From positions 1 through 26,810 of the IMG/VR virus record IMGVR_UViG_3300047678_000272: 26,810 bases of DNA, one strand, 5' to 3'. Origin of the DNA: a virus. The notes under the pieces were generated by a model. It was not told where the DNA came from and made no database searches. It saw only the letters and a list, made by a program, of their open reading frames with translations. This document shows, one piece after another, positions 1,902 through 19,088 of the stretch (position 1 is its first letter; the number at the start of each line of letters is the position of its first letter). The translations under genes and the position numbers were made by a program.

Positions 1902-1975
1902 GGTTCTATAGCTCAGCTGGATAGAGCACAGGTTTTCTAAACCTGCGGTCCTTGGTTCGAATCCAAGTAGGACTA
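1902..1975 (+). tRNA. tRNA-Arg (TCT), second copy
   Basis: Cloverleaf with acceptor GGTTCTA/TAGGACT, D arm GCTC/GAGC, anticodon stem CAGGT/ACCTG, loop TTTCTAA (TCT) and T arm CTTGG-TTCGAAT-CCAAG. No encoded CCA. Same anticodon as the gene at 146 but a different body, so not a recent duplicate. Confidence 0.95.
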
Positions 1976-1980
1976 CTGTG

Positions 1981-2007
1981 TAACTTTTACGATTAAAAAA
2001 CGTATAA
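1981..2007 (+). promoter_or_regulatory. Class 1 phage promoter
   Basis: TAACTTTT-N12-CGTATAA, exact match to the recurrent motif. It starts six bases after tRNA-Arg and points at the structured RNA at 2015-2170, which has no ORF of its own. Confidence 0.75.
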
Positions 2008-2014
2008 GATACCC

Positions 2015-2170
2015 AAACGAGAGTAAGTTCTGCACGGTGCGTAAAGTATGCAGGGGTTCTAGGTCTTTGATGACTTAAGGTTGTCAAAAAAATAAATGAG
2101 GAACATAAATGGTTGAAGGTTGACCGCTTCTTTAATCTAGCCACCGAATCCTAGGGCGGAACTTGCTTTT
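2015..2170 (+). ncRNA. Candidate structured non-coding RNA
   Basis: About 150 nt, starting just after a class 1 promoter. A 12-bp terminal helix joins AGTAAGTTCTGC (2022-2033) to GCGGAACTTGCT (2156-2167) with two G-U pairs and is followed by TTT. Inside are a hairpin GCGTA-AAG-TATGC (2039-2051), a helix TTCTAGG (2057-2063)/CCTAGGG (2150-2156) and a hairpin TGAC/GTCA (2071-2086). It has no ORF. I could not match it to tmRNA, RNase P, SRP or 6S landmarks. Confidence 0.6.
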
Positions 2171-2184
2171 AATGAATTTTTGAA

Positions 2185-2191
2185 TATTTAT
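2185..2191 (+). promoter_or_regulatory. TATTTAT late-type promoter element
   Basis: TATTTAT followed by ATAAAATAG, 99 nt before the CDS at 2291. Farther from its gene than most other copies. Confidence 0.3.
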
Positions 2192-2290
2192 ATAAAATAG
2201 AACTATGTGCAATCTTAAAATACCACTCTTCAGGCTCAGAGCCAGGCGCTAACTTCAAATGTGTTCTGGTGATGATAAAACCTGAAGCAA

Positions 2291-2590
2291 ATGAAAGATT
2301 ATAAAAGAGCGTTAAGACGTTGGAGATCTAAATGTAAATTCGAGAAGAGGATTAATATTTGGGTTCCAGGAAGTAAGTCTCAATTGTTTATCGGCGATAA
2401 CGGATTTGAACGTATGTCATCGGCAGATTTGAAAAAGAAAATTAGAGACGGTGAGTGTTGGACTTTTTTAAAATGGACATCCACACCCTGCAGTTGTAGT
2501 GGTTGTGCATATCTAAAATACGAAAGAGATCCGAAAGGTAAGATTAACAAAAAAATCTGGGATGATATCCAAGATGATTTGGCCACATAG
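2291..2590 (+). CDS. Orphan protein with CxCxxC cluster (99 aa)
   Basis: A basic N-terminus (KRALRRWRSKCKFEKR) is followed by a region with CSCSGCAYLKYERD near residues 67-80, a compact cysteine cluster that could hold a metal. I do not recognise the family. Its stop codon TAG lies inside tRNA-Arg(CCT): the last 10 bases of the CDS are the first 10 of the tRNA. Translation and tRNA maturation from one transcript are therefore mutually exclusive at this junction. Confidence 0.75.
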   Translation: MKDYKRALRRWRSKCKFEKRINIWVPGSKSQLFIGDNGFERMSSADLKKKIRDGECWTFLKWTSTPCSCSGCAYLKYERDPKGKINKKIWDDIQDDLAT

Positions 2591-2753: not shown

Positions 2754-3452
2754 ATGAATACAAAACACCTTCTCTACAAAGAGAAACTCAAAGTTGAAGA
2801 ACAACTTAGCGAGCTTTATGAAATCCAACGCAATCAAAATTGGGTTGAACTTGCCGTGCCTTACAAGGACGGATATTATAAATACACTGACCTCAGAGAC
2901 GACATTAAAAATCGTGCTGATGCTTGGGTTTTCCGTGAATGCTTAAGATTGGTTGGAGGCAGAATTTGGTCTAGAAGCAGATCTTTCAAAAAGAAAATAA
3001 AAAAAGGTAAGTATGAGTATTTGATACCATCCTTCGGAGAAATTTCTGAAGAGCAGTACAGAAATACACACCCTAAAGTTCAAAAGTATTTTGAGCCAGT
3101 TGGTCCTTACAGCAAACGCTGGAATCCATACAGAAAATACTATGTCTGCATAGTTCCAGGTTATTATTTCATTGATAAAATCAAGCCAAGATGGATAACT
3201 CACTACAAAGAGCATGATAACTTAATTGAAGCTCAAATAGCGGAATTAGATGACTACCTTGATTCTAAAAAATTCTGGAATGTTCACTTTTGGCGTGGTT
3301 ATGGCGGAGTTCCAAGAGAATTCACTAAATCTTTCACTCGTTCAGATAGAAGATATAATAAAGCAGCTCTAAAGAAGAATATTGACAATGGCGATGATGC
3401 ATGCGAATACAGATATGCTCACCGCCATTCAGCAAAGTGGTATTATTGGTAA
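2754..3452 (+). CDS. Orphan protein rich in aromatic and basic residues (232 aa)
   Basis: A soluble protein with an N-terminal helix (KHLLYKEKLKVEEQLSELYE), then many Trp, Tyr and Arg residues (GGRIWSRSRSFKKKIKKGKY, RWNPYRKYYVC) and a His/Tyr-rich C-terminus (YRYAHRHSAKWYYW). No signal peptide or membrane segment. The composition would suit nucleic-acid binding, but no domain is recognised. The start is fixed by the hairpin-bridged SD upstream. An intrinsic terminator follows the stop codon at once, so this is the last gene of its unit. Confidence 0.75.
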   Translation: MNTKHLLYKEKLKVEEQLSELYEIQRNQNWVELAVPYKDGYYKYTDLRDDIKNRADAWVFRECLRLVGGRIWSRSRSFKKKIKKGKYEYLIPSFGEISEEQYRNTHPKVQKYFEPVGPYSKRWNPYRKYYVCIVPGYYFIDKIKPRWITHYKEHDNLIEAQIAELDDYLDSKKFWNVHFWRGYGGVPREFTKSFTRSDRRYNKAALKKNIDNGDDACEYRYAHRHSAKWYYW

Positions 3453-3458
3453 AAAAAG

Positions 3459-3480
3459 GCCTAGCTTAGCTAGGCTTTTT
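3459..3480 (+). terminator. Intrinsic terminator
   Basis: GCCTAGC-TTA-GCTAGGC followed by TTTTTGCTTTTT, with an A-run on the 5' side that could also serve the other strand. Confidence 0.85.
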
Positions 3481-4019: not shown

Positions 4020-4826
4020 ATGTTAGTATTAGAAAATATAAGAGACAAGGAGCCGTTTGAAAAAATTATTTTCGACATGGATTTATCTGCAAGAGATTCT
4101 TCAGATAGATTGTTTATAGTTCGCACAATAAAAGATTTTAAAGGCGAAGGTCTTAAAAAATCTCAAGATGGGGTTTGGTATACATTTATTCCTGTTAATG
4201 ATGTAAATAAGTTTTCTGAAAAAGTTGGACAATTTTCTCCTAAGTCAACAGGAGAAATACAGGATTTTACAAAATTCAAAGCAAATAAAGGATTAAAAGA
4301 TAATCAACAAATAACTTTCTTAGATTATAGCATTAGCGAAACAGATCCACCTCTTACTGTTGGATATTTAAAACCTGGATTTATACAATCTCATAAATCT
4401 TTATTGAAATGGACTGATGCAAATGGAAATATTAAAGATGAGTGGATTTACAATAAAGATATTGATATTGATGGATTTTATCATAGAGATCCTAAATCTA
4501 CTACTGTTGTAGGTCCGAAGGTTGAGTTTGGCGTAGACACAAATACTTTATTAGACAAAGAAAAAGAAAGATTAAAGGCTATTGTAAAAGCTCATGGCGG
4601 AAGAATTGACCGCCTATTCGGCAAACAAGGTTACCAAACTACTGGCGGTAAAAATTATGCAATATTTAAACCTAATTTTGACTTCGATAATTTCTATCAA
4701 GATGCGGTAGAGTTCGAACCTTATTATGCAGAGATGGAAAAAGGTAGTATGATGTCTGAAGAAGATGTTATAATGAATGAAGCTAGAAAAGTTGTTAGAG
4801 ATATCTTTAAAAAGATATTTAATTAA
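4020..4826 (+). CDS. Orphan protein with RKIIRE-like C-terminal helix (268 aa)
   Basis: Starts 2 nt after the preceding stop. Mostly a mixed alpha/beta sequence with charged stretches and no recognised motif. The last residues, EARKVVRDIFKKIFN, resemble the N-terminal leader of its neighbours (RKIIRE), but at the other end of the protein. A GGRIDRLFGKQGYQTTGGKNY segment near residue 197 is Gly-rich. The operon position suggests the same fate as the leader-bearing proteins. Function unknown. Confidence 0.72.
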   Translation: MLVLENIRDKEPFEKIIFDMDLSARDSSDRLFIVRTIKDFKGEGLKKSQDGVWYTFIPVNDVNKFSEKVGQFSPKSTGEIQDFTKFKANKGLKDNQQITFLDYSISETDPPLTVGYLKPGFIQSHKSLLKWTDANGNIKDEWIYNKDIDIDGFYHRDPKSTTVVGPKVEFGVDTNTLLDKEKERLKAIVKAHGGRIDRLFGKQGYQTTGGKNYAIFKPNFDFDNFYQDAVEFEPYYAEMEKGSMMSEEDVIMNEARKVVRDIFKKIFN

Positions 4827-6546: not shown

Positions 6547-7332
6547 ATGGCCCACAGAAACAAGCATAAGAAGAACAATTTATATGGCAATTGTCGTGTA
6601 TACTCTCCAAAAGGAAATTTAATGTTTCTATGTTTAGAAAAGCGTATTAACTGGTATTTAAACAAAGGTTTGGCTGAAAAAATATCAGACAACCCAATAA
6701 CAATAAAATTGCTTTTTGAACCTAAAGATGAAGGTCATCATGGCGATGAATATTATTTATCTCAGAAGCATAATAGGTGTGTGAAGTGTGGAACAGAAGA
6801 TTTGGCTAGTTTAACAAGACATCATATCGTACCTTATCAATATATAAAATTTATGCCTGACGAAGTTAAAAAAGTTAGCGCTTTTGATATTGTGCCTATT
6901 TGTTTTGAACATCATCACTATTATGAGAGATTTGCAGACAAACTTAAACAAAAATTGGCTGAAGAATATGAAGCTCCTGTCGGTGGAATTATAAATAGAA
7001 ACGAAACTCTATTTCTTGCTATATGTGCATCCAAAGCCCTTGTTTGGGGCGGAGATGGAATCCCTTACGACAAAAAAGTTGTTATGGAAGAAAATGTAAA
7101 AGCATATACAAAAAAGGACCACATTTCAAAAGAAGATTTAGATTTTCTAAGAAAGAAAAAAGCAGTAGACTCTAGAACTGTTATTACTCATGGAGAAGTT
7201 GTGATTAGTAAAGTGACAGATTATCAAAAATTTTGTGAAATGTGGAGAGAGCATTTTTTTAAATATTTAGATCCTAAACATATGCCACAACATTGGGATT
7301 TAAAAAGAAGTGTATATAAACAAATAAGATAA
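6547..7332 (+). CDS. EXD2-type HNH-like nuclease domain protein (261 aa)
   Basis: The N-terminal part (NCRVYSPKGNLMFLCLEKRINWYL) and the centre (CVKCGTEDLASLTRHHIVPYQ followed later by DIVPICFEHHHYYE) resemble the C-terminal region of EXD2-type proteins as I recall it. They form a CxxC zinc knuckle plus RHH...H HNH-like metal site. It probably binds or cuts nucleic acid. The last third has no recognised motif. There is no sign of mobility (no target duplication), so it is more likely a resident phage enzyme than a homing endonuclease. First gene behind a class 1 promoter; the HD gene follows 12 nt later. Confidence 0.7.
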   Translation: MAHRNKHKKNNLYGNCRVYSPKGNLMFLCLEKRINWYLNKGLAEKISDNPITIKLLFEPKDEGHHGDEYYLSQKHNRCVKCGTEDLASLTRHHIVPYQYIKFMPDEVKKVSAFDIVPICFEHHHYYERFADKLKQKLAEEYEAPVGGIINRNETLFLAICASKALVWGGDGIPYDKKVVMEENVKAYTKKDHISKEDLDFLRKKKAVDSRTVITHGEVVISKVTDYQKFCEMWREHFFKYLDPKHMPQHWDLKRSVYKQIR

Positions 7333-7344
7333 AAAATAAAAATT

Positions 7345-8395: not shown

Positions 8396-8446
8396 AGAAT
8401 CAGCGTACTTATTAACAATGTGTAGATAACTTATCTGCGCAAAGTA

Positions 8447-8473
8447 TAACTTTTTGTCGTAACTTTCGTATAA
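8447..8473 (+). promoter_or_regulatory. Class 1 phage promoter
   Basis: TAACTTTT-N12-CGTATAA, ATG 14 nt past the motif; the N12 itself contains GTAACTTT, a partial second copy. Confidence 0.8.
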
Positions 8474-8487
8474 GTGATAATAAACTT

Positions 8488-9222
8488 ATGGAAAAACATA
8501 TACAAAAAGTAAAAGTTACAGATTTTGGTAAAAGACATTTTGAGCCAAAGTTCGGTGGTACAAAAATAACAGACATTTCTGCTGAAGAATTTGAAGCTAT
8601 GATTAATTCAGAGCTTGAAGTTTTTTACAAAATAACAGAAGGAAGAAATATACTTCCTATTGTAAGTGATGTTAAAAAAATAATTCCTGGGTATGCTGAT
8701 TTTTGTAAGCTTGTATGTTTAAAAAACAAGACAAGCGCAAGAACAGGTTCTATGCCAATCGCTATTGAAAATTATCAATATTTGAGATCAGGATTTTCTT
8801 CTAGAACTCCTAGTGAACTTCCTGTGATGGATAGATGGTTTGAATTACCATTGCCTGCATCCAAGGCTGAATATCTGATGATTGTTCTTTATTCAAGAGA
8901 GCAATTATTAAAAGAGCATGAGGAAGATTTAAAAAAGAAATTTAAAAGCTGGGAAGAGACTAGAAATGAAACTTTATCTGAATCTGACAAAAAGGCTATG
9001 TGCGAATTAGATGGATTTAAATTTGATTTGAGTGAAGATGATGAATGGGGTGTTGTTGCTATATTAGGACAAATGTCTTCTGACGAAGAACCAATGAAGC
9101 CTATAACAATGATGCGCAATGCTTTGGGTATCTCCGAAGGTGGTTCTGGAGTCTCGATTGACAGAGAAAGATATGCTCAGAGCGTACATTTCTGGTCCAA
9201 CAATGCAACCGTCAAGACCTGA
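8488..9222 (+). CDS. DUF3228 family protein (244 aa)
   Basis: Matches the DUF3228 pattern as I recall it: IIPGYADFCKLVCL, MPIAIENYQYLRSGFSSRTPSELPVMDRWFELP, YLMIVLYSREQ, WGVVAILGQ and PMKPITMMRNALGISEGGSGV, ending DRERYAQSVHFW. The family is uncharacterised. The final FWSNNATVKT is encoded within the edge of an inserted endonuclease gene (the minus-strand CDS overlaps this stop by 46 nt). A second copy of the same 3' end, FWSKNATVK plus stop, lies beyond that gene at 10329-10358, so the present C-terminus was probably supplied by the insertion. Confidence 0.8.
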   Translation: MEKHIQKVKVTDFGKRHFEPKFGGTKITDISAEEFEAMINSELEVFYKITEGRNILPIVSDVKKIIPGYADFCKLVCLKNKTSARTGSMPIAIENYQYLRSGFSSRTPSELPVMDRWFELPLPASKAEYLMIVLYSREQLLKEHEEDLKKKFKSWEETRNETLSESDKKAMCELDGFKFDLSEDDEWGVVAILGQMSSDEEPMKPITMMRNALGISEGGSGVSIDRERYAQSVHFWSNNATVKT

Positions 9223-14519: not shown

Positions 14520-16031
14520 ATGAAAACAAAGTTAACACCGTTCAGTAGAATCCTAATCGCCTTGGTAATTGGCGCAGGATTATTTTTTGGAGTCAAAATG
14601 TTGATTCCCACACCTAAAGTAGATCCAGCGACAGGGCTAGACACAAACGACCAAGAGAAAGTTATGACGATTGGTGTTGTTACCTGGGGCGGATACGCAG
14701 GTGGGCAATACTTTAATGAAGGATTTAAAGCGTCTAAAAACTCAAGATTCTTTAAAGATTATGGCATTCTTGTAGAGTTCAAGCTTATTGATGATTTTAA
14801 TGCATCAAGAGAAGCGTTTAAGGCAGGTAAAGTAGATTTGTTATGGCAAACTGCTGATGCATTCCCAACAGAGGTGAATGGCCTTAAAGAATTTAATCCA
14901 AAAATCGTTTTCCAAACCGATTGGTCAAGAGGTGGCGATGCAGTTGTAGTTCGTAGAGGTATTGCTAGTGTAGCTGACCTTAAAGGCAAAAAAATTGCTG
15001 TAGCTCCTATGACACCATCACACACTTTCCTTTTAAGTTTGTTCAAAGCAGGGGAGTTAAACATTAAAGATGTTCAAATCATTGAGGTTGCGAGTGCAAT
15101 TGATGCAGCCGACCTTTTCAAAAAACAACAAGTTGATGCGGCTGTAGTTTGGTCTCCTGATGATCAAGCATGCGTAGAAGGCGTAGAAGGCTCTAAAATT
15201 TTAATTAGTACGAAAACTGCTAAGAATATTATCGCTGACATTTTCTATGCAAAAGATGAATATATTCAATCTCATAAAGAAGAATTAAGAAAACTTGTTG
15301 AGGGTTGGATGATTGGTTCATCAGAAATTAATAGCAACGAAGACAATAAAAAGAAAGCAGCTCAAATACTTGCTGATGGTCTTGGTCAACCTGTAGATTT
15401 TTGTTTAAACGCAATCAACAATGCTCGTCTTTGTACAGCAGGTGATAACGTTAACTTCTTCAATTTAAATGGAACTTTTGATGGTGTGTCAGGCGAAGAC
15501 TTGTATAACACTATGACTGTTGAATACCAAAAAGTTGGTGTTGTAAACGGAGTTGTTCCATCATGGAGAACAATAGCTTATGTGGATGCTGTTAAAGCTC
15601 TTAAACTTAGTGGCCCTACACATTTAGCTGAAAACTCTTCTAGTTTTGCACCTATTAAAGAAGACCACAAAAATGTAGCAGCCATCTCGACAAAGAAAGT
15701 AACAATTTCTTTCGCTACTGGCGCATACACTTTAGATGAAAATTCTAAATATGTAATTGATAAAGAATTTGTAGATATCGCAAAAGGTTTCTCAGGAGCA
15801 AGAATTAGAATTGAAGGTAACACCGATAATGTAGGTAGTGAAATTCCAAACAAAGCTTTATCAAAAAAGAGAGCACAATCTGTTGCTGATTATTTAATCA
15901 CAGCACATAACTTTGATAAGAATCGTATTGTTGTAATCGGAAACGGCCCTAGTAAGCCAGTGGATGATAACTCAACAGAAGATGGTCGATCTAAAAACAG
16001 ACGTACCGACTTCGAACTTATCCCTGAATAA
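14520..16031 (+). CDS. NMT1/SsuA-like substrate-binding protein fused to OmpA domain (503 aa)
   Basis: One N-terminal membrane segment (ILIALVIGAGLFFGVKMLI, about 11-29) anchors it to the inner membrane. Residues about 48-330 form an ABC solute-binding domain of the nitrate/sulfonate/thiamine-precursor type (MTIGVVTWGGYAGG, DLLWQTADAFP, IASVADLKGKKIAVAPMTPSHTFLL). The C-terminal 110 residues are a peptidoglycan-binding OmpA domain (VTISFATGAYTLDENS, IEGNTDNVG, LSKKRAQSVADYL, GRSKNRRTDFEL) with the conserved Asp and Arg. The protein would bridge inner membrane and cell wall while presenting a ligand to the permease. The ligand cannot be read from sequence. The domain pair is known in bacteria; a phage copy is unusual. 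Confidence 0.9.
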   Translation: MKTKLTPFSRILIALVIGAGLFFGVKMLIPTPKVDPATGLDTNDQEKVMTIGVVTWGGYAGGQYFNEGFKASKNSRFFKDYGILVEFKLIDDFNASREAFKAGKVDLLWQTADAFPTEVNGLKEFNPKIVFQTDWSRGGDAVVVRRGIASVADLKGKKIAVAPMTPSHTFLLSLFKAGELNIKDVQIIEVASAIDAADLFKKQQVDAAVVWSPDDQACVEGVEGSKILISTKTAKNIIADIFYAKDEYIQSHKEELRKLVEGWMIGSSEINSNEDNKKKAAQILADGLGQPVDFCLNAINNARLCTAGDNVNFFNLNGTFDGVSGEDLYNTMTVEYQKVGVVNGVVPSWRTIAYVDAVKALKLSGPTHLAENSSSFAPIKEDHKNVAAISTKKVTISFATGAYTLDENSKYVIDKEFVDIAKGFSGARIRIEGNTDNVGSEIPNKALSKKRAQSVADYLITAHNFDKNRIVVIGNGPSKPVDDNSTEDGRSKNRRTDFELIPE

Positions 16032-16041
16032 TAATCTTAAG

Positions 16042-16070
16042 AGAGGAGTCTAAGGCTCCTCTTTTTTTTT
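16042..16070 (+). terminator. Intrinsic terminator or attenuator
   Basis: AGAGGAG-TCTAAGG-CTCCTCT followed by T9. It sits between the binding-protein and permease genes, so it may set a higher level for the binding protein. Confidence 0.85.
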
Positions 16071-16087
16071 ACCCAAATCAAAAAAAT

Positions 16088-16870
16088 ATGAAAGAATTTT
16101 TTGAATTAAGAGGCGAACTCAACAAAAATAAAACGTTGACTTTGCAAATAGCAGGATTTCTTATTCTTGTTATTATTTGGCAATTAACATCAATGTTTAT
16201 CGGATCTAATGCGATATTGCCACCACCATTAAATATAATAACAGCATTCCATGATTTACATTTTAATGATTTTTTATTGTATAATGCCTCAATATCAATT
16301 AAATTAAATTTGTTAGGATTTCTAGAAGCAGTTTTAATTGCTGTTCCTATAGGTTTTGTTTTAGGCTTATTTCCTTTGTTTAGAGAGCTTTTTGGCAAGC
16401 CCATTGATGCTTTAAGGTTTGTTCCTTTAACTGCGCTTACAGGCTTGTTTATAGCTTGGTTTGGCATAGAAACAAATATGAAAGTTCAGTTCTTAGCGTT
16501 TGGTATTATTGTTTACTTACTTCCAGTAGTTATTCAAAGAATTGCAGAAGTAGATAAGGTTTATCCTCAAACATCATATACATTAGGAGCAGTAAAATGG
16601 CAAACAATAAAGTCAGTTTATTTTCCTGCAGTTATGGCCAAGGTTTCTGACGACATAAGAGTGTTGACTGCAATTTCATGGACATACATAATTGTTCCTG
16701 AGATGATCAACCAAAATGGTGGTGTTGGTGCAATGATATTTAAATCAGCTCGTCAAAGTAGATTGGATAAAGTGTTTGCAATACTTATTGTTATTGTGAT
16801 AATAGGATTTTTGCAAGACAGATTATTTAAATGGTTAGATAAAAAATTATTCCCTTACAAATACATTTAA
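16088..16870 (+). CDS. ABC transporter permease, SsuC/TauC-like (260 aa)
   Basis: About six membrane helices, starting TLQIAGFLILVIIWQLTSMFI. The EAA coupling loop is SYTLGAVKWQTIKSVYFPAVM (near residues 163-183), which docks the ATPase. Upstream, RFVPLTALTGLFIAWFG is typical of the nitrate/taurine/sulfonate permease branch (P-L-x-A-x-x-P in usual members; Pro is partly replaced here). The length is standard. The ATPase gene follows after 3 nt, so the two are translationally linked. A homodimer would form the channel. Confidence 0.9.
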   Translation: MKEFFELRGELNKNKTLTLQIAGFLILVIIWQLTSMFIGSNAILPPPLNIITAFHDLHFNDFLLYNASISIKLNLLGFLEAVLIAVPIGFVLGLFPLFRELFGKPIDALRFVPLTALTGLFIAWFGIETNMKVQFLAFGIIVYLLPVVIQRIAEVDKVYPQTSYTLGAVKWQTIKSVYFPAVMAKVSDDIRVLTAISWTYIIVPEMINQNGGVGAMIFKSARQSRLDKVFAILIVIVIIGFLQDRLFKWLDKKLFPYKYI

Positions 16871-16873
16871 GAT

Positions 16874-17680
16874 ATGCAATTTATAAATACAGAATTACCT
16901 GATATTATAGAGCTTCGTAATATCTCTCAGGTTTATGACAACACCAATGTTGTTTTAAAAGATTTTAATCTCCTAATAGAGGATCAGCCAAACAGAGGTC
17001 AATTCGTTTGTTTGCTTGGCGCTAGTGGTTGCGGTAAATCAACCATTCTTCGTTATGTAACAGGCTTACAAGAACCAACAAGCGGAGAAATATTTTTTAA
17101 AGGAAGGCCTATAACAAAAAAAGATAGAGTAGGAATGGTATTCCAACAATACTCATCATTTCCATGGCTTAGTGTTTTAGAGAATGTAGCCCTTGGTTTA
17201 GAATTTCAAGGCATTTCAAAAAAAGAAAGAAACGATAGAGCAATGGAAATGTTGCAAATTGTAGGTCTTGAAAAACACAAAGACAAGTATGCAAAATATC
17301 CAACGCTTTCTGGTGGACAACTACAAAGAGTCGCTATTGCAAGAAGCTTGCTTTCAAATCCTGAGATTATTGTTATGGATGAGCCATTTGGTGCATTAGA
17401 TATAAACACACGTCTTAGAATGCAAGATATGTTGATGGACATATGGATGAAAGTAAAACCAACAATTATTCTTGTTACACATGATATTTCTGAAGCAGTT
17501 TATCTTGGTGATGATATTTATATCATGAGAGCAAATCCAGGTATAATAACAGAACATGTAAAGGTAAATTTTCCAATACCAAGAGTAAAAGAATTAAAAA
17601 GAACTCCTGATTTTATGAACATGGTTCATATGATAGAAGATAAAATGGTTCAAGTAGAACAAACAAGTATAAAAAAATAA
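16874..17680 (+). CDS. ABC transporter ATPase, SsuB/TauB-like (268 aa)
   Basis: All nucleotide-binding motifs are present: Walker A GASGCGKST (near 49-57), Q-loop VFQQYSSFPW, signature LSGGQLQRVAIARSL, Walker B IIVMDEPFGALD and H-loop THDISEA. There is no missing catalytic residue, so it should hydrolyse ATP. The closest branch is the nitrate/sulfonate/taurine importers, in agreement with the permease and binding protein. It starts 3 nt after the permease and ends 3 nt before the diiron-protein gene. Confidence 0.93.
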   Translation: MQFINTELPDIIELRNISQVYDNTNVVLKDFNLLIEDQPNRGQFVCLLGASGCGKSTILRYVTGLQEPTSGEIFFKGRPITKKDRVGMVFQQYSSFPWLSVLENVALGLEFQGISKKERNDRAMEMLQIVGLEKHKDKYAKYPTLSGGQLQRVAIARSLLSNPEIIVMDEPFGALDINTRLRMQDMLMDIWMKVKPTIILVTHDISEAVYLGDDIYIMRANPGIITEHVKVNFPIPRVKELKRTPDFMNMVHMIEDKMVQVEQTSIKK

Positions 17681-18766: not shown

Positions 18767-18829
18767 TTTTTTTCGAACTGACTTTCAAATAGTTAAAAGA
18801 AAAGTGAAAAAAAAGTTTGCAGTTACATG

Positions 18830-18856
18830 TAACTTTTACTAACTTTGTTCGTATAA
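18830..18856 (+). promoter_or_regulatory. Class 1 phage promoter
   Basis: TAACTTTT-N12-CGTATAA driving a single 40-codon ORF. A partial copy GTTAC/TAACTTT overlaps. Confidence 0.8.
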
Positions 18857-18903
18857 ATTATCAAGAAAAGAAAAATTATAACTATTTAAATTAAAGAACA
18901 CCG

Positions 18904-19026
18904 ATGAAACAAGTAATTACATATTCAATAAACATGCCAGCGATGCCGAAAGGCGCTGCAGGGATGGGGTATGCTCCAGCGGATTATAGCGGGGTAGCGA
19001 GTATGTTAACTTTATTTGGATCATAA
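18904..19026 (+). CDS. 40-residue microprotein
   Basis: Reads MKQVITYSINMPAMPKGAAG, continues MGYAPADYSGVASMLTLFGS and stops. It is small, Met/Gly/Ala-rich and uncharged after the start, with no membrane segment of full length. It has a dedicated class 1 promoter, a roughly 40-nt leader and a strong terminator, so it looks like a real one-gene unit rather than a chance ORF. Function unknown; the size suits an anti-host peptide or a regulator. Confidence 0.6.
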   Translation: MKQVITYSINMPAMPKGAAGMGYAPADYSGVASMLTLFGS

Positions 19027-19053
19027 TGGTTTAAAAAAATATTAAAAGTTAAG

Positions 19054-19088
19054 AAACTCGCTCCCAAAAAGAGCGAGTTTTTTTTGTT
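19054..19088 (+). terminator. Intrinsic terminator
   Basis: AAACTCGCTC-loop-GAGCGAGTTT followed by T8, one of the strongest in the window. It also separates the microprotein from the tRNA array. Confidence 0.9.

Follow-up and report, generated by a model that had tools for sequence, protein, structure and literature searches.

Bacteriophage T4 encodes two small RNAs, RNAC and RNAD (species 1 and 2 RNA), whose genes, rnaD (119 nt) and rnaC (139 nt), lie directly behind a tRNA-Arg gene, the successive genes being 1 and 6 nt apart. The available part of a review describes their biological roles as unknown (PMC3014915), and the accessible text of a transcriptome study classes both as late, by northern blot as well (PMC9697503). 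For the jumbo phage PhiKZ, Grad-seq yielded noncoding RNAs of about 100 and about 180 nt (PMC8545117). The candidate analyzed here shares with these the status of a jumbo-phage noncoding RNA candidate, but the accessible portion of that report assumes the ~100-nt RNA to be processed from the 3′ end of an mRNA, locates the ~180-nt RNA within a 5′ UTR, and describes an own promoter for neither (PMC8545117).

The DNA under study is a viral contig of 26.8 kb (IMGVR_UViG_3300047678_000272), which was analyzed at its full length of 26,810 nt and is referred to as the window. Its proteins point to a huge-phage origin. The ArgRS-like protein (positions 420 to 1631; PF00750) is 46.7 to 51.5% identical to proteins of two phages of 634 to 636 kb, and an OmpA/NMT1 protein (14520 to 16031) gave matches of approximately 38% to a 735-kb phage and to Prevotella Lak phages. 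Because the window proteins match huge phages, including the Prevotella Lak phages, the host is probably a member of the Bacteroidota. The NMT1-like/OmpA fusion protein, also present in the Lak and 735-kb phages, is followed consecutively by a permease-like and an ABC ATPase-like protein (14520 to 17680), the last two named by eye. Elsewhere, two similar ORFs (23323 to 25617), homing-endonuclease-like by eye and 84% identical over their first 292 nt, sit in strongly folding stretches (z = −5.6 at 23323 and −4.3 at 24805).

The window contains 18 tRNA genes, three of which are tRNA-Arg genes flanking the small-RNA locus. Across positions 146 to 26775, several anticodons are served by pairs or triples of genes (Arg TCT, Pro TGG, Asp, Tyr, Ala, Gly TCC, Gly GCC, and Met). 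The RNA (2015 to 2170) begins 38 nt downstream of the tRNA-Arg gene at 1902 to 1976. Between the ArgRS-like gene and tRNA-Arg(TCT) lies another noncoding stretch that is richer in GC (1755 to 1895); it had no Rfam match and folded no better than shuffled sequences (z = −0.48). The features of the locus are as follows.

1902 to 1976, plus strand: tRNA-Arg(TCT), directly 5′ of the RNA and a neighbor only; Rfam tRNA score of 67.1 bits.
1979 to 2007, plus strand: ECF-type promoter TGTAAC-N16-CGTATAA, class 1 of the preliminary description; zero mismatches to the shared motif.
2013 to 2170, plus strand: proposed small RNA; no plus-strand ORF of at least 50 aa; predicted fold of −45.7 kcal/mol, z = −2.8.
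2019 to 2033, plus strand: 5′ arm of closing helix P1 (GAGAGTAAGTTCTGC); 15 bp with 2156 to 2170, pair probability 0.75 to 1.0.
2038 to 2052, plus strand: predicted hairpin TGCGTA-AAG-TATGCA; pair probability 0.75 to 0.97.
2053 to 2152, plus strand: predicted inner helix (2053 to 2059 with 2146 to 2152) around two more hairpins; pair probability 0.88 to 0.95.
2066 to 2088, plus strand: predicted hairpin (2066 to 2075 with 2079 to 2088); pair probability 0.66 to 0.88.
2089 to 2110, plus strand: A-rich stretch of 22 nt, predicted unpaired; unpaired in the minimum free energy (MFE) structure, no partner above 0.4.
2111 to 2142, plus strand: weakly supported hairpin; pair probability 0.42 to 0.58.
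2156 to 2170, plus strand: 3′ arm of P1 (GCGGAACTTGCTTTT); pairs with 2019 to 2033, pair probability 0.75 to 1.0.
2180 to 2200, plus strand: second promoter-like motif, TTTTTG-AA-TATTTATATA, for ORF 2291; TATTTAT also stands before other window ORFs and before the homologue of ORF 2291 in the phage loci L086 and L109.
2291 to 2590, plus strand: ORF 2291, a 99-aa phage protein and a neighboring unit; homologues with 66% (L086) and 43% (L109) identity.

As a noncoding RNA of roughly 120 to 150 nt adjoining a phage tRNA gene, the candidate resembles RNAC and RNAD, which are of similar size and likewise adjoin a phage tRNA-Arg gene (the T4 anticodon is TCT by reading). It differs from them in sequence and predicted fold, blastn giving no match to either at E ≤ 1, and in the ECF-type promoter located between tRNA and RNA; moreover, rnaC ends in a T-arm-like stretch, which the window RNA lacks. 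Since position and size are common to both but sequence, fold, and T-arm are not, we regard the window RNA as arranged like the T4 RNAs and do not file it in their family.

The preliminary description had placed a class 1 promoter before the RNA, and this was borne out. The copies of the promoter were first noticed in a repeat search of the window; the shared motif is TGTAACTTTT-N12-CGTATAA, and the site at 1979 to 2007, which reads TGTAACTTTTACGATTAAAAAACGTATAA, fits it without mismatch. With up to three mismatches allowed, the window holds six sites, all on the plus strand, compared with 0.26 expected, a number reached in none of 100 shuffles. In the viral collection, 82 stretches contain the motif exactly; with one mismatch, it is present in 24 of 26 records searched, those 24 having been preselected for the motif; the other two, 630-kb phages not so preselected, have no site with up to one mismatch. 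Among eight relatives chosen regardless of the motif (with the exception of G013), four carry it (G025, as TGGAAC, G046, G013, and G028) and four do not. At 90 of the 113 distinct sites in the fetched phage loci an ORF starts within 110 nt, which is why we consider the motif to behave as a promoter. The site at 1979 to 2007 is unlike most of these in that it leads into 156 nt closed by a helix. A literature search found no description of the motif in phages. Behind another copy, at 18828, come an ORF of 40 codons (MKQVITYSINMPAMPKG...) and, at 19051, a strong terminator (stretch 18828 to 19083); similar small ORFs stand behind the same promoter in L006, L032, L054, and L076, and the ORF possibly encodes a conserved phage micro-protein.

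With AAC in the −35 element, a spacer of about 16 nt, and a −10 element starting with CG, the AAC-N16-CGT layout resembles promoters of ECF sigma factors. The pattern given for ECF group 16 in the accessible part of a published survey is tGTAACc-N16-CGAA (PMC3420878); the window motif shares with it GTAAC, the 16-nt spacing, and the CG opening of the −10 element, but continues as CGTATAA instead of CGAA.

In the phage G006, the class 1 motif lies ahead of an ECF-like sigma gene (L129 10768 to 11427; 10768 to 11478 including the motif). The gene encodes a protein of 219 aa that contains sigma-70 regions 2 and 4_2, and the motif begins 51 nt upstream of the ATG. A motif placed before the sigma gene itself is the self-regulated arrangement of ECF sigma genes, and its occurrence in G006 suggests that this ECF-like sigma factor is self-regulated. 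Sigma region 2 was matched in 10 of 12 records searched and region 4_2 in 9 of 12, six of these above the cut-off; the 291-aa sigma factor of G013 is RpoD-like by reading of its sequence. The window contig gave no match to either region.

Transcription from the promoter would start at about 2013 to 2015, 6 to 8 nt past the −10 element; for EcfF, the available text of the survey gives a start 6 bp downstream (PMC3420878). The 3′ end is placed from the helix. A sequence of approximately 150 nt closed by a 12-bp helix (2022 to 2033 with 2156 to 2167) had been claimed earlier, and this pairing proved genuine and continues without interruption over 15 pairs, 2019 to 2033 with 2156 to 2170, starting about 6 nt past the point where transcription should begin. 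Of 361 distinct best long-span helices in the contig, P1 has the highest score. Its score was reached by none of 1,000 dinucleotide shuffles of 2008 to 2230, its length by four, and when the test was repeated with wider limits on the span the count was 1 of 400. The z score of the MFE was −2.8 to −2.9, and −2.04 for 2008 to 2180. As 6.4% of 342 windows across the contig reach −2.8 and the value for 2008 to 2180 is lower in magnitude, global stability alone is not convincing; unlike the overall fold stability, the long closing helix beside the promoter is. The same 6.4% would suit a helix formed by chance within a spacer that is transcribed but has no function, as would the failure to find a homologue or covariation and the fact that one of three closing helices in G013 (see below) is little above its shuffles. 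We nevertheless consider such a chance origin very unlikely, given that none of the 1,000 shuffles reached the score of P1, that P1 ranks first in the contig, and that it begins right at the expected transcript start. Coding sequence was rejected as an explanation of the stretch; the only long ORF over it is a GTG-started minus-strand frame (1797 to 2144) that crosses the tRNA gene. The RNA contains three copies of CTAG, compared with 45 across the contig, and palindromic CTAG stretches serving as a switch or in dimer formation are an idea.

The 22-nt stretch predicted to be unpaired (2089 to 2110) could belong to an antisense regulator whose A-rich loop pairs with mRNAs of phage or host. However, none of 22 window start regions tested clearly beat its shuffles (best z = −1.58), and we give this function a very low probability. 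The location beside tRNA genes also brings to mind a tRNA-derived or tRNA-like RNA, for example, a tRNA that has decayed or carries an intron, or an element similar to tmRNA. A T-arm-like stretch forms the end of T4 rnaC itself, relatives have unusual tRNA-like RNAs (L109 3164 to 3390), and a T-arm-like UCUAG/CUAGG hairpin abutting P1 can be drawn. Forcing that hairpin, however, costs about 7 kcal/mol (−39.0 versus −45.7), a canonical T-loop sequence is absent by eye, ARAGORN called no gene in 1977 to 2300 with introns allowed and in tmRNA mode, and no Rfam tRNA or tmRNA match lies over the RNA; a tRNA-like nature is therefore extremely unlikely. The stretch in L109 is noncoding, with tRNA-like ends (TTACCAG/CTGGTAA, T-arm CGGGTTCGATTCCCG) around a long insert, and was not called as a tRNA even with introns allowed.

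At the 3′ end, the preliminary description had the helix end in a T-run. This run is only TTTT and falls within the helix, and no entry appears there in the terminator scan. The scan listed nothing at 2150 to 2190, where a short hairpin with a T-run would mark the 3′ end of the RNA, and no plus-strand terminator between 2170 and 3454, where a strong one follows (3454 to 3480). Without a recognizable terminator, transcription may read through, and the RNA may form the 5′ portion of a longer transcript. The 156 nt might accordingly be a structured leader of a polycistronic transcript that runs via ORF 2291, tRNA-Arg(CCT), and ORF 2754 to the terminator at 3454 to 3480, its fold regulating or protecting the mRNA or being cut off by RNase III. 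The absence of a listed terminator up to 3454 fits such a leader, and the next gene is indeed ORF 2291, starting 283 nt past the −10 element of the promoter at 1979 to 2007. That distance contrasts with the 90 of 113 class 1 sites that have an ORF within 110 nt, and ORF 2291 has its own promoter-like motif. Upstream of its start are the TATTTATA motif and a hairpin, in the window (2185 to 2290) and, by direct reading, also in L086 (~7213 to 7335) and L109 (~4296 to 4392). In these two nearest syntenic relatives the RNA is absent from the locus: in L086 the homologue of ORF 2291 follows the ArgRS gene at about 130 nt, too little space for the RNA; the L109 homologue stands behind a gene that looks TrpRS-like by eye. 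Since both keep gene and leader without the RNA, the latter is an extra unit in the lineage of the window, adjoining an independent gene, and we judge a leader function to be unlikely. TATTTAT, often after TTG or TTTTTG, was also observed shortly upstream of several ORFs (2185, 3493, 8014, 18532, 20841, 23346, and 24820).

The earlier statement that no ORF stands behind the promoter is thus correct for 283 nt, after which ORF 2291 follows with a promoter-like motif and leader of its own. The stand-alone structured RNA unit proposed there is similarly upheld in part: the dedicated promoter, a helix that opens about 6 nt behind the presumed start, and the separate motif for ORF 2291 speak for it, whereas the 3′ end has no recognizable terminator.

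The RNA had initially not been placed in a known class, and it fell into no family in Rfam searches at gathering and permissive thresholds either: Rfam 15 gave no match over the RNA at the gathering score and none overlapping 2015 to 2170 at E ≤ 5. Having no Rfam match, 6S RNA, RNase P RNA, and SRP RNA were ruled out. With blastn, 50,697 phage records returned tRNA or chance-level matches only. A covariance model built from the single sequence found nothing at E ≤ 0.1 in 26 records, one match in 24 loci (E = 5.1, the helix alone), and one of 45 bases in 22 further records (E = 0.18). All 11 matches of two DNA patterns in the viral contig collection were unrelated by eye and lacked promoter and helix. 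Some protein-anchored scans gave no relative and others gave relatives but no homologue of the RNA, and a scan of the genome contig collection gave no relative. The literature listings searched for such RNAs in huge phages contained no description of this element. The locus is probably a small-RNA gene of a known general kind, a phage tRNA-region small RNA, that belongs to no recognized family.

Similar layouts were found in two other phages. In G013 (L074), two tRNA-Arg(TCT) genes are followed by a promoter variant, TGTAACATTT..CGTATAG at 8402, and by approximately 490 nt without an obvious gene, after which come a tRNA-like stretch and a homologue of window ORF 2754-3452 (50% identity). The noncoding DNA (8402 to 8895) may comprise three helix-closed units, whose helices were equaled or beaten in 45, 17, and 5 of 400 shuffles, respectively, so that the last two alone are better than chance, at about 4% and 1%. 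In G006 (L130 4738 to 5118), promoter, tRNA-Met, a 238-nt segment, and tRNA-Glu occur in this order, and the segment has a 12-bp closing helix running into a T-run (3 of 400 shuffles; MFE z = −4.49). No kinship in sequence or structure to the window RNA was found for either noncoding segment; what the three phages have in common is the layout.

On balance, and with slightly better than even confidence, we interpret the locus as a huge-phage gene dedicated to a small RNA and located beside tRNA-Arg; the RNA is most likely stable and structured and acts in trans. The promoter motif, the closing helix, and the separateness of the ORF 2291 leader are shown; we infer transcription, 3′ end, stability, and trans action of the RNA as follows. 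An ECF-type sigma factor, probably phage encoded, would initiate transcription at about 2013 to 2015, next to tRNA-Arg in the tRNA-bearing region, and the transcript would fold into a multibranched RNA of approximately 155 nt, in which the 15-bp helix would lock both ends together and so provide protection from exonucleases. The stable RNA would then act in trans by binding a protein or a component of translation, and not through long antisense pairing. In its position, its size, and its probable stability, the RNA resembles T4 RNAC and RNAD.

A broader generalization, which we put forward as speculative and quite unlikely, is that huge Bacteroidota phages recurrently produce fast-evolving, helix-closed stable RNAs from phage ECF-sigma promoters in tRNA clusters, the window, G013, and G006 being cases. 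Such RNAs would be functional counterparts of RNAC and RNAD, perhaps decoys or inhibitors of host defenses that target tRNAs, or modulators of a phage-controlled translation machinery. If true, a decoy or modulator role would explain the turnover of sequence despite constant architecture and location. The comparable layout in unrelated huge phages would suggest that RNAs of this kind recur in phage translation regions, and the ECF-type promoter would serve as a handle for finding more of them from sequence alone.
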